This document shows positions 17,235 to 20,749 of a stretch of 40,665 nucleotides of DNA, piece after piece. The notes under the pieces were generated by a model that saw only the letters and a program-made list of their open reading frames with translations, did not search any database and was not told where the DNA came from. The stretch spans positions 1-40,665 of IMG/VR virus record IMGVR_UViG_3300020000_000034; one strand, written 5' to 3'. Source of the stretch: a virus. Both the position numbers and the translations under genes were made by a program. Within the stretch, counting starts at the first letter, position 1. Each line of letters starts with the position of its first letter.

Positions 17235-17264
17235 AAGCCCCGGCACCTTGCGGGGCCGGGGCTT
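17235..17264 (-). terminator. Rho-independent terminator of the leftward AAA+/VWA operon
   Basis: AAGCCCCGGC (17235-17244) pairs with GCCGGGGCTT (17255-17264), a 10-bp GC-rich stem with a ten-base loop. Read leftward, the stem runs into TTTTGC. It sits about 40 bases beyond the stop of the CobT-like gene, as expected. Confidence 0.75.
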
Positions 17265-17302: not shown

Positions 17303-19168
17303 TCAAAGGGCCTGCAGGACCCGGACGAAATGGTCAAGCCCGACGTCGGCAATGGCTTGTCCCGGGGCCACGCGAACCTCTGCCTTGAACGAGCCCCGCA
17401 GGGCCGTGAAAATCGAAACGTGAGCGATCACGGTTCCGCAGGTTTTCTCAAGATGCCGCGCCATTCGCTTGACGGTTTCTTGGCCGTAGTCGCAGCCCCC
17501 GTCCGTCACCAAAAACAGAACCCGACGCTTGCCGGGGGCCCGTGCCGCTTGGGCCACGGCAGCCCGCGCCATATGGGGGCTCAAGGGCGTGCCGCCGTCC
17601 GCTTGGTTCACAAGGACCCCAAAATCCGCCGGATTAGGCGTGCGCTTGCCTGCAAGGGCCCCGGCCCGGATGTAACCTATGGAATTGAAAACCTCCGTTG
17701 TGCAGGACGCCCCGACGCTGGCTGCCGCTTGCGTCACGATCAAGCCCACCTCAAGGGCTGCGGACATCTTGCCCGCGTCGCCCATACTGCCGGATGCATC
17801 TAGCAGGACGTGAACGTCAGTATCAAAACCCTCGCAAACGTCACGGCGTTCAAAGATTGTTGACGAACCTGCGGCGACGCGGGCCAGCGCGCTACGGTTC
17901 AAGCGTCCCGTGCGTTTTCCGCCTTCCCGTTCGTCGGTATCGTTAGCCCTCAAAGCCCGCGCCAAAAGGGCGCGCTGTTTGGAAGCACGGGCTGCCGCGC
18001 TCTTGAGGCGTTCGGCATTGGGGCCGTTGCGCGAATGGCCTTGATCCTTGGGCTTCATGCCGATAATCCCGCTACGCAGGATGTTGATGACCACGCGTTC
18101 GTTGACCGCTTCCGCGCCCGTGAGGTTTTCGTCGGCGCTATCGTCGGGGGCTAGTTCCCGTTCGGTCAGGTCCTTGTCGTTTTTCACGGGCTTTTCATCA
18201 GCGTCAAAGGTTCCATCTCCCTGCCCCTTGCCGCCTTTGCCCCCTTCCTCGCCCTCAGAACCTCCGGTTTCACCGGAGGGGCTTTCAGTCTCGCTAGGAG
18301 GGCCGTCCGTGCGTTCGTCCTGCTCGCCCTCGCCTTCCTCGCCTTCCTCGCCCTCGCCCTCTCCCTGCCCTTCCTGCGGGCCTTCCTCGCCCTCGCCCTC
18401 GCGGGGCTGCGCCCCGCTCTCGCTCTCGCCCTGCTCGCTCTCGCCCTGCTCGCCCTGCTCGCCCTGCTCGCCCTGCTCGCCGGGGAAACCACCGGGGCCG
18501 TCAACCTGAGGGGCCGCAAGGGCTGCCATGATACGCTTTGCAAGGGCTGTACAATCGGCCGTCGATTTGCACGCGGCCAAATCCGGCAAGGCCCAAGCCA
18601 AAACGGCGTGAACCGTCCCGCCTGCTTTGATTTGCGCGTCGATCCAAGCCAAATCGGAACCGTCGAAAGCATAACCATTGGCCGCACGCCCTAGAACGCA
18701 AATGGTCCACCCGAATTCGCGGCGAGCGTTCGGTTTCCAGCCATTGGAACGGGCTTCCACAATCTTGCGGGACAAGAGGCGGGAAAGGACGCTTTTAGCG
18801 TTCGGCACAATGCCTGAAACGATAAGGGCTTTTTCCATTCGGACATCTTCCAGCGCGTTGACCATGCGGGCCACGCCGTCGCGGCATGCCGCCTGCCACG
18901 CCACCATATCGGTATGCGCGGGATGGCCTAACTCGTGAAGCAAATAGGAAACCCAGTTTTCGAATTCGGCTTGCGTCATGCGGGACGCCGCAGGGCGTAC
19001 GGGCATGTTCACCTTGATGTTATAGGCGTCCCAAGTCACGGACGCCGTTTGCGCGGCGCTATCGCAAACCAAAAGCACGCGGGCGATTTCACGGGGGCGA
19101 AGCACCTTGATAAAATCGTTTGCGACGCTTTCCAGCGCGGTCAGAGCTTCCGGATAAGTATATGACAT
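17303..19168 (-). CDS. CobT-like VWA protein with HExxH metallopeptidase-like motif
   Basis: 621 residues. The N-terminal domain (1-220) contains LLHELGHPAHTD with His78-Glu79 and His82, a zincin-type HExxH, and downstream NALEDVRMEK whose Glu107 could be the third ligand. Residues about 225-345 are an acidic Gly/Glu/Gln linker. The C-terminal VWA domain (about 445-621) has a complete MIDAS: DASGS (457-461), Thr527 in GGTP and Asp556 in VTDGG. It is organised like CobT, the partner of the CobS AAA+ ring in cobaltochelatase, but no CobN-like subunit is encoded here. A metal-dependent protease or remodelling adaptor is more likely than cobalamin synthesis. Codon use differs from neighbours. Confidence 0.8.
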   Translation of the reverse strand: MSYTYPEALTALESVANDFIKVLRPREIARVLLVCDSAAQTASVTWDAYNIKVNMPVRPAASRMTQAEFENWVSYLLHELGHPAHTDMVAWQAACRDGVARMVNALEDVRMEKALIVSGIVPNAKSVLSRLLSRKIVEARSNGWKPNARREFGWTICVLGRAANGYAFDGSDLAWIDAQIKAGGTVHAVLAWALPDLAACKSTADCTALAKRIMAALAAPQVDGPGGFPGEQGEQGEQGEQGESEQGESESGAQPREGEGEEGPQEGQGEGEGEEGEEGEGEQDERTDGPPSETESPSGETGGSEGEEGGKGGKGQGDGTFDADEKPVKNDKDLTERELAPDDSADENLTGAEAVNERVVINILRSGIIGMKPKDQGHSRNGPNAERLKSAAARASKQRALLARALRANDTDEREGGKRTGRLNRSALARVAAGSSTIFERRDVCEGFDTDVHVLLDASGSMGDAGKMSAALEVGLIVTQAAASVGASCTTEVFNSIGYIRAGALAGKRTPNPADFGVLVNQADGGTPLSPHMARAAVAQAARAPGKRRVLFLVTDGGCDYGQETVKRMARHLEKTCGTVIAHVSIFTALRGSFKAEVRVAPGQAIADVGLDHFVRVLQAL

Positions 19169-19196
19169 TGCTAGGGTTTTCCTATGTTGAAAGCAG

Positions 19197-19252
19197 AAAA
19201 GGGGCCTTTTGGGCCCCCTTTTTACGCCTATTCGGGTTTGTTTGTCAAACCC
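19197..19252 (-). terminator. Two hairpins between the CobS-like and CobT-like genes
   Basis: Directly after the CobS-like stop, GGGTTTG and CAAACCC (19234-19252) form a 7-bp hairpin. Further leftward is a GGGGCC/GGCCCC stem (19201-19217) flanked by A4 and T5, a terminator shape in both directions. Because the CobT-like gene follows in the same direction, this is probably an attenuator that lowers its expression, and it could also stop rightward antisense transcription. Confidence 0.55.
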
Positions 19253-20749
19253 CTAGTAAGGGTTCGTTGCGTCGCCGAATGCTTGGGCTGCCGCCGAATT
19301 CGACGGCGTCACAATCGGGGCTGCGTCCTTGCCGTGAACCATGGCTTCAAAAGACACGTTCCACGCCAGATCGGCCAGCCCGTCGATTGTCGCGCGTTCC
19401 ACGGACGGCATCCGGCTTGAGAGCGTGGCCTTGAAGGCGTCCTGCGAACTAAAGCCATCTTGGATCATGCGAACCAAGGCGATCATTTGGCGCATGCTGA
19501 TAACCACGCCAGCGAGCGTCGGAATGCGCCTTGCTTGTTGCACCCAATCGGCCAAATGCCGCGCTGCAGGTAATGGGCAGCCCGTGTGGTTCGCGAGGGC
19601 TTCCGCCTCACGCTGCGGGCTCAAATAATCCATATGGATCATGCGAGCGAAACGCGTAACCAAGGCCACATTGCTAACGTTGGTTCCGGCATAAAGCCCG
19701 CCTTCGTCCCCGCTTCCGGCCGTGTTATCGGCGACCACGAAAACCACGCCGTCCGCAGCGTGAACCACTTCACCGGTTGGGAGCGTCAAGGACCTATGCT
19801 CGCTGGCCGCATGCTGAATAATCGCCTGCACGCTAGGAGGGGCCAGCGTCAATTCATCGATCAAGATCACGGTCCCGGGTTGCCGCAGGGCTTGGGTGAA
19901 CGAACCATCCACCCATATGGTCTGACCGTTGACCAAGCCCGTTCCGCCAATAAGGGCTTCCGTATCGGTTTGCTTCATCATCTCGATTGAGACAAAGGGC
20001 CGTCCCGTGACTGCCGCAGCATAGCGCGGCATGGATGATTTACCCGACGCGGACGGCCCGACTAACCACACGTTTTCGCCTCTTTCCCAAGAGGTTAGCA
20101 TGGTCGCCATCTGATTACGGTCCACGACGTAATGAGGGTCAACGGCCGGGGCTGCCGCACCGGTCCAAAGCGTCACGGACGCGTCAAGATAAGCGTCATG
20201 CTTGCGTGTCGGAAAGAGCGTGCGAACCGTAACCCGCTTGTCCCTGCGGGCCTTGGGGAGCGTGCGGGCCTTGGGCATTTCGCCCGGGGCCACTTCCACA
20301 ATGCGTTCAATTTCCACAATGCGTTCAATTTCCACGGGCCCCTTATTGGCTGCCGCGATCACGGGCCCAAGGGCCTTGCCGAGTTCCTGCCGCATAAGAG
20401 GGCTCATGAGTTGTTCCACCGGGGCCAAAACGCCGTCAAGCTCATAGCCATGCGGGGCCGATACGCTTTGCGAGGCTGCCGCCGGTTCTGCATCTTCCAT
20501 CGTTTCATCATCCATGAGGGTTTCGGGGGCATCCACCTGCGAGCCCTGCGGGCTTTGGCCTAGGATGGTTTCGATTTGGGCCGTTAGGGCCGGATGCCTG
20601 AGGGCGAATTCCAAGAGGTTTGAATTCAGGGCTTTTGCCGAGATGATGCCCTTTTCCACGAGATAGGCGGGCCAAGAGGTATGGGCCTTAACAAGGGCGC
20701 GAATGGTGCCACGGGCATGCGAGGGGATTTGAGTATTCAGGGAAAGCAT
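19253..20749 (-). CDS. CobS/MoxR-like AAA+ ATPase
   Basis: 498 residues from ATG 20749 (AAAGG eight bases upstream); an in-frame TTG at 20779 is weaker. The N-terminal 170 residues are helical, with an IERIVEIERIVEV duplication. AAA+ core: Walker A GPSASGKS at 231-238, Walker B VILIDEL with Asp298-Glu299, sensor-1 VVADN, and GLYAGTNVSNVALVTRFARM. The core's GD-x-x-GLY-x-GT signature is that of CobS, the hexameric chelatase motor; Arg366 or Arg369 would be the finger. Forms an operon with the VWA protein downstream, as CobS/CobT and MoxR/VWA pairs do. Target unknown. Confidence 0.9.
   Translation of the reverse strand: MLSLNTQIPSHARGTIRALVKAHTSWPAYLVEKGIISAKALNSNLLEFALRHPALTAQIETILGQSPQGSQVDAPETLMDDETMEDAEPAAASQSVSAPHGYELDGVLAPVEQLMSPLMRQELGKALGPVIAAANKGPVEIERIVEIERIVEVAPGEMPKARTLPKARRDKRVTVRTLFPTRKHDAYLDASVTLWTGAAAPAVDPHYVVDRNQMATMLTSWERGENVWLVGPSASGKSSMPRYAAAVTGRPFVSIEMMKQTDTEALIGGTGLVNGQTIWVDGSFTQALRQPGTVILIDELTLAPPSVQAIIQHAASEHRSLTLPTGEVVHAADGVVFVVADNTAGSGDEGGLYAGTNVSNVALVTRFARMIHMDYLSPQREAEALANHTGCPLPAARHLADWVQQARRIPTLAGVVISMRQMIALVRMIQDGFSSQDAFKATLSSRMPSVERATIDGLADLAWNVSFEAMVHGKDAAPIVTPSNSAAAQAFGDATNPY

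Follow-up and report, generated by a model that had tools for sequence, protein, structure and literature searches.

Pairs of adjacent genes annotated as cobS and cobT have been described from phages in several studies (PMC8651126; PMC9503304; PMC11288001). The cobST cluster occurs in tailed viruses of eight orders and many hosts, belongs to the core of T4-like cyanophages, and corresponds to PHROG_249 together with PHROG_5298, PHROG_459 and PHROG_1576; its products have been proposed to hijack CobN, which would place them in vitamin B12 synthesis (PMC8651126). A separate report regards the function of cobS in phages as uncertain (PMC11288001). The cellular CobS and CobT proteins (TIGR01650, TIGR01651) work with CobN in the known enzyme. 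A wider set of systems, namely NorQ-NorD, other MoxR AAA+/VWA pairs and midasin, shares the combination of an AAA+ protein with a disordered linker and a VWA domain bearing a metal ion-dependent adhesion site (MIDAS). In NorQD a finger of the VWA protein enters the AAA+ pore, use of ATP twists the linker, and the client is believed to be bound at the MIDAS (PMC13036017; PMC9976466). Here we analyze a pair of the published phage cobST kind, encoded on the virus contig IMGVR_UViG_3300020000_000034 (40,665 bases; this whole contig is referred to below as the window). Its CobT-like member has an N-terminal domain with a conserved HExxH...NxxED site, and we propose that it is a putative metallopeptidase.

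An earlier note, made from the nucleotide sequence without database searches, had described two adjacent minus-strand open reading frames (ORFs) coding for a CobS/MoxR-like AAA+ ATPase and a CobT-like VWA protein; both the positions and the domain assignments were recovered here (Table 1). The AAA protein matches AAA_5 (Pfam, 6.7e-16) and PHROG_249 ('porphyrin biosynthesis', 7.8e-48). It combines an AAA_5-type ATPase domain with a Walker A and a Walker B (VILIDE) motif, and the adjacent VWA gene codes for a complete MIDAS, which places the two in the MoxR class. When the profile comparison proposed in the note was carried out, the AAA protein scored 42.9 bits, below the 558.55-bit NCBIfam equivalog cut-off for CobS (TIGR01650), and the VWA protein by itself matched neither a Pfam nor an NCBIfam profile, the CobT equivalog TIGR01651 included. 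The latter protein does match PHROG_1576 (7.5e-24) and, chiefly over its low-complexity linker, PHROG_5298 ('cobalamin biosynthesis protein', 8e-7). Matches to PHROG_459, PHROG_5073 and PHROG_819 also fall largely on the linker and were dropped as functional evidence. CobN (PF02514) was not found anywhere in the window record, in agreement with the note. Its description of the pair as an undescribed system does not stand, given the published phage cobST clusters and the 515 phage records, mostly of cyanophages and annotated as CobS, in which tblastn matched the AAA protein. The closest named phage found is Microcystis phage Mae-Yong1326-1, with 31% identity for both proteins; at the DNA level, phage records contained no match to the pair. 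No part of the AAA alignment was sufficiently conserved to query viral contigs with.

The VWA gene recurs at 100% identity on a second, separate IMG/VR contig, where the flanking ORFs, among them those for primase and DNA polymerase, likewise match the window at 100% identity. Adjacency of the two genes is kept among relatives, and almost every viral locus has an AAA partner adjoining the VWA gene. Likewise, the seven closest relatives (L008-L011, L014-L016) keep the pair in inverted orientation beside the TerS-like, TerL and portal genes. In two close pairs both genes have a ratio of nonsynonymous to synonymous substitution rates of 0.11-0.14, indicating purifying selection. Together these observations argue that the association of the two genes is more than chance.

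The N-terminal domain of the VWA protein contains a zinc-protease-like HExxH...NxxED site formed by H78, E79, H82, N104, E107 and D108, which the first reading of the sequence had missed. As in zincins, the HExxH is followed downstream by an acidic candidate for the third metal ligand, and both elements are conserved. In an alignment of five highly divergent phage VWA proteins the invariant columns include these six residues and E112. A scan of viral sequences with the pattern NxxED..E yielded 44 loci, in which the pattern columns are conserved by the manner of selection and the HExxH is independent of it. The HExxH is present in 43 of the 44 VWA ORFs; in the remaining locus (L037, 4223-7008) the gene is split into two overlapping ORFs, coding for the N-domain and the VWA domain, and the motif (HECGH...NIVED) lies on the separate N-terminal ORF. 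A comparable split has been reported for HHTV-2. Across 35 aligned sequences the invariant columns of the N-domain are exactly H78, E79, H82, N104, E107, D108 and E112 against a mean column identity of 24%, the invariance of N104, E107, D108 and E112 stemming in part from the search pattern. E79 is as invariant as the two histidines.

Sixteen named phages and phage-plasmids were found by way of the AAA or VWA gene, and hence independently of the NxxED pattern; their hosts are from Proteobacteria, Cyanobacteria, Actinobacteria and Bacteroidota. The HExxH is present in 14 of them: ICP2, SSU5, CMS-2020a, Mae-Yong1326-1, CRP-810, T5S1, P-HM1, RHph_Y2_11, the Acinetobacter element, Woes, BS162P1, HTVC008M, OC and Cantare. 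The NxxED part differs in ICP2 (NMVVD), Woes and Cantare. Three plasmid forms linked to DUF3150 genes retain the HExxH as well. Two Burkholderia loci (L059, L071) were left uncounted for their N-termini, as their VWA frames start within an apparent overlapping AAA gene in another frame. No report of the HExxH site in CobT or phage VWA proteins was found in the open-access papers searched, and this broadly conserved site of phage cobST is apparently so far unreported.

Cellular CobT shares with the phage proteins homology over nearly the full length (profile against profile, E 1.8e-41; N-domain alone, 2.3e-5 at a probability of 76%), the MIDAS, the acidic linker and the residues E107 and E112. 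It differs in lacking the HExxH: among 31 sequences from an alphaproteobacterial set, all scoring above the cut-off of TIGR01651, the HExxH residues are missing from the aligned columns in every case (0/31), whereas E107 is kept in 31/31 and E112 in 30/31. Two related motifs fall outside the aligned columns: an HDxxH elsewhere in one protein and an HExxH in an upstream overlapping frame.

Phylogenetic trees (quick maximum-likelihood, unrooted, with long branches and with support from the Shimodaira-Hasegawa-like approximate likelihood ratio test [SH-aLRT] only) recover cellular CobS and cellular CobT each as one tight group, a single Burkholderia sequence joining the former. The window AAA protein falls in a viral set of 24 rows (23 others; SH-aLRT 96) and the VWA protein in a 31-row set (SH-aLRT 97) that is entirely HExxH-positive and includes plasmid and genome forms; both lie outside the respective cellular clades. 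On the VWA tree the HExxH state shows strong clustering and requires a minimum of five changes, one of which is the split gene of L037, scored as lost though its N-terminal ORF carries the motif. The unrooted tree is compatible with a loss in CobT, as opposed to a gain in phages, and cannot prove the direction. The earlier note had named placement inside true cobaltochelatase clades with a CobN partner elsewhere in the phage or host, or decay of the ATPase and MIDAS residues in close relatives, as grounds for abandoning its view; the trees place both proteins elsewhere, the phage record has no CobN, and close relatives keep these residues. Its preference for a remodelling or proteolytic machine over a cobalamin enzyme is thus the better reading, given the lack of CobN and the position of the pair outside the cobaltochelatase clades. 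Its proteolytic half gains from the HExxH...NxxED site, evidence that the note had not cited.

An AlphaFold2 model of the window VWA protein, made with 34 relatives, shows a confidently predicted N-domain (pLDDT, the predicted local distance difference test score, about 90-98 in most blocks) and a well-predicted VWA domain; modelled alone, the N-domain has a mean pLDDT of 92.0 and a predicted template modelling score of 0.88. The HExxH and E107 lie on two helices of this domain, and H78, H82 and E107 would form one metal site. Foldseek searches with the whole VWA model return the midasin MIDAS and NorQD as top matches. A profile of the whole family matches the solved CobT structure (9uka, 5e-54) over the linker and VWA domain, and a sequence search of the N-domain against the PDB gave zero matches. 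In BFVD the N-domain has significant matches to other phage CobT/VWFA proteins, including a halovirus protein, with further weak matches to phage zincins of the M34, SprT and IrrE types. The putative metallopeptidase-VWA proteins of DUF2201 (PF13203) likewise have an HExxH domain followed by a VWA-like domain, and were rejected as the family of the N-domain (no Pfam match; hhalign probability 0.5%).

Based on its sequence, phylogeny and predicted structure, the best supported reading of the pair is an AAA+ metalloprotease: a MoxR-class machine with an AAA+ ring and a MIDAS adaptor that carries a probably active zincin-like metallopeptidase, to which we assign a probability of roughly 0.6. By analogy with NorQD, the AAA+ protein would form an ATP-driven ring, as in the MoxR-class pairs NorQ-NorD, CobS-CobT and midasin. 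The VWA domain would dock on this ring, its MIDAS metal gripping an acidic residue of the client, and ATP hydrolysis would pull on the flexible acidic linker to reposition the N-terminal domain and client. The N-terminal domain, with a metal on H78, H82 and E107 and with E79 as general base, would then probably cut the client. The targets of NorQ-NorD, the MoxR pairs and midasin differ from that of the phage pair, and we know of no HExxH domain of the phage CobT kind in these systems. Because DNA replication genes frequently surround the pair, and in the window lineage the terminase adjoins it, our low-confidence guess is that the client sits on complexes of viral DNA replication or on nucleoprotein complexes. 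More tentatively, and at slightly less than even odds, phage and plasmid 'CobST' as a whole might represent a widespread two-gene family of AAA+ metalloproteases filed under vitamin B12, with cellular CobT as a relative whose protease site has decayed. Papers on viral ecology routinely list phage cobS and cobT among the auxiliary metabolic genes for B12. If the AAA+ metalloprotease reading is true, this assignment will have to be revised. A gene pair common in phages would then have a function open to experiment, and the question of where the cobaltochelatase motor came from could be reopened.

Several points weigh against this reading. The HExxH motif is also found in proteins that are not peptidases. 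Fold matches of the N-domain in the PDB are non-significant (best E 0.47), even though zinc metalloproteases (ZMPSTE24, selecase, M61, SPRTN, LasB) make up most of the top of the list. Pseudomonas phage hairong (SEIAK) and Stenotrophomonas phage BUCTxx99 (REVST), loci L054 and L055, retain the pair without the HExxH, suggesting that the N-domain can serve without catalysis in some lineages. The replication-gene neighbourhood is a tendency noted on reading individual loci. Finally, the 'peptidase' annotation of phage cobT has been called mistaken (PMC8651126).

An alternative which we consider unlikely is a metal-insertion chaperone similar to NorQD, whose HExxH domain would hold a metal and pass it on to a metalloenzyme of the phage or host, leaving proteins uncut. 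Metal insertion is common to NorQD and CobNST, an HExxH binds a divalent metal, and the VWA part is close in fold to NorD. However, NorD is absent among the listed PDB fold matches of the N-domain, and the loci read do not share any metalloenzyme gene as a neighbour. Moreover, the Glu of the HExxH in zincins is a general base and not a metal ligand; a carrier would need the histidines and not E79, and since E79 is as invariant as they are, hydrolysis is favoured over mere metal binding. Somewhat less probable again is a pure remodelling machine, in which the N-domain would be a scaffold or client-binding module as in cellular CobT and the HExxH a relic. The lineages that lost the motif and kept the pair, and its lack in all the cellular CobT proteins examined, are in line with this proposal; yet a relic would be expected to decay, and the seven motif residues are the sole invariant columns of an otherwise divergent domain, with the reservation on the search pattern made above.

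The least probable of the three is that the pair acts in B12 synthesis as an auxiliary module, using host CobN to raise cobalt insertion into the corrin ring and so supplying enzymes that depend on B12, for example class II ribonucleotide reductase (PMC8651126). The near full-length homology to CobT, the 178.7 bits that the CobT of CRP-810 scores on TIGR01651, and the CobN that some hosts may have are consistent with it; the profile scores and tree positions of both window proteins are not, and a role in B12 synthesis leaves the HExxH, lacking in true CobT, unexplained. Carriers of the pair also include phages, phage-plasmids and plasmids of E. coli, Klebsiella, Salmonella and Vibrio cholerae. 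E. coli lacks de novo synthesis of the corrin ring and Salmonella relies on the CbiK route, neither being on the aerobic CobN route. Foreign cobN, cobS and cobT were used to engineer B12 synthesis in E. coli (PMC6249242). The pair is most likely not a cobalamin enzyme. A defence system was rejected, PADLOC returning no anti-phage defence model match for the window proteins.

On the cellular side, 28 of 63 CobT-positive (over cut-off) genomes in an alphaproteobacterial set (G001-G120) have no detected gene of the CobN/BchH family, with assembly completeness not known for all; this side result points the same way as the non-B12 reading. Caulobacter vibrioides, one of the control genomes, is CobT-positive and CobN-negative, and a 2025 paper lists Caulobacter cobT with genes affecting fitness under stress from ethylenediaminetetraacetic acid and copper. 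Cellular CobST may have a second role.

Table 1. Positions of the gene pair and its features in the window
Feature	Position	Strand	Details
AAA+ ATPase, CobS/MoxR (AAA_5) type	19253..20749	-	498 aa from ATG; operon gene 1
Walker A, GPSASGKS	20036..20059	-	residues 231-238; G231, G236 and K237 invariant in the AAA alignment
CobS-type signature, GDEGGLYAGT	19682..19711	-	read in the sequence
Intergenic gap with T-tailed hairpin	19169..19252	-	84 nt; from folding; scan matches no commoner than in shuffles
CobT-like protein: HExxH domain, acidic linker, VWA/MIDAS domain	17303..19168	-	621 aa; operon gene 2
N-terminal domain, predicted zincin-like metallopeptidase	18506..19168	-	residues 1-221; AlphaFold and invariant columns
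HELGH (HExxH)	18923..18937	-	residues 78-82; within predicted helix 66-85
NALED	18845..18859	-	residues 104-108; candidate third metal ligand E107, predicted helix 100-118
Gly/Glu/Gln-rich acidic linker	18134..18496	-	residues about 225-345; 225-318 disordered (AlphaFold prediction)
MIDAS motif, DASGS	17786..17800	-	residues 457-461; T527 and D556 complete the site
Terminator-like hairpin after the VWA gene	17236..17257	-	7 bp stem

In those of the seven closest relatives whose flanking sequence extends far enough, primase and DNA polymerase genes follow on the other side of the pair. L012 and L013, which are more distant, have the pair and TerL on one strand. Among the other phages that were opened the pair is found near DNA polymerase III and ligase, near gp45/46/47 and the clamp loader, or near primase and helicase. 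Over a thousand plasmid records contain relatives of the VWA protein. On an Acinetobacter plasmid the pair lies beside DNA polymerase III, and three conjugative or mobilizable plasmids have a DUF3150 gene ahead of the VWA gene, two of them with an AAA gene as well. In this plasmid variant (L056, L058, L060) the HExxH-VWA gene comes directly after the DUF3150 gene, near RecT/exonuclease, SSB or toprim genes.

The operon had been credited in the earlier note with its own terminator: a hairpin is indeed present after the VWA gene, but in this GC-rich DNA the region shows no excess of such sites over shuffled sequences (8 found against 7.2 expected). The T-tailed hairpin between the two genes is a possible attenuator that could lower VWA relative to AAA protein, fitting a 6:1 complex, with the same lack of excess over shuffles. 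Intergenic hairpins also occur in L008, L009, L010, L014 and L015, often with one just past the AAA stop codon and another that has a T-run. Between the window and its seven closest relatives identity is about 87-92% for TerL and, within the aligned stretches, mostly about 61-75% for the AAA and VWA proteins, indicating that the pair diverges much faster than this packaging gene.

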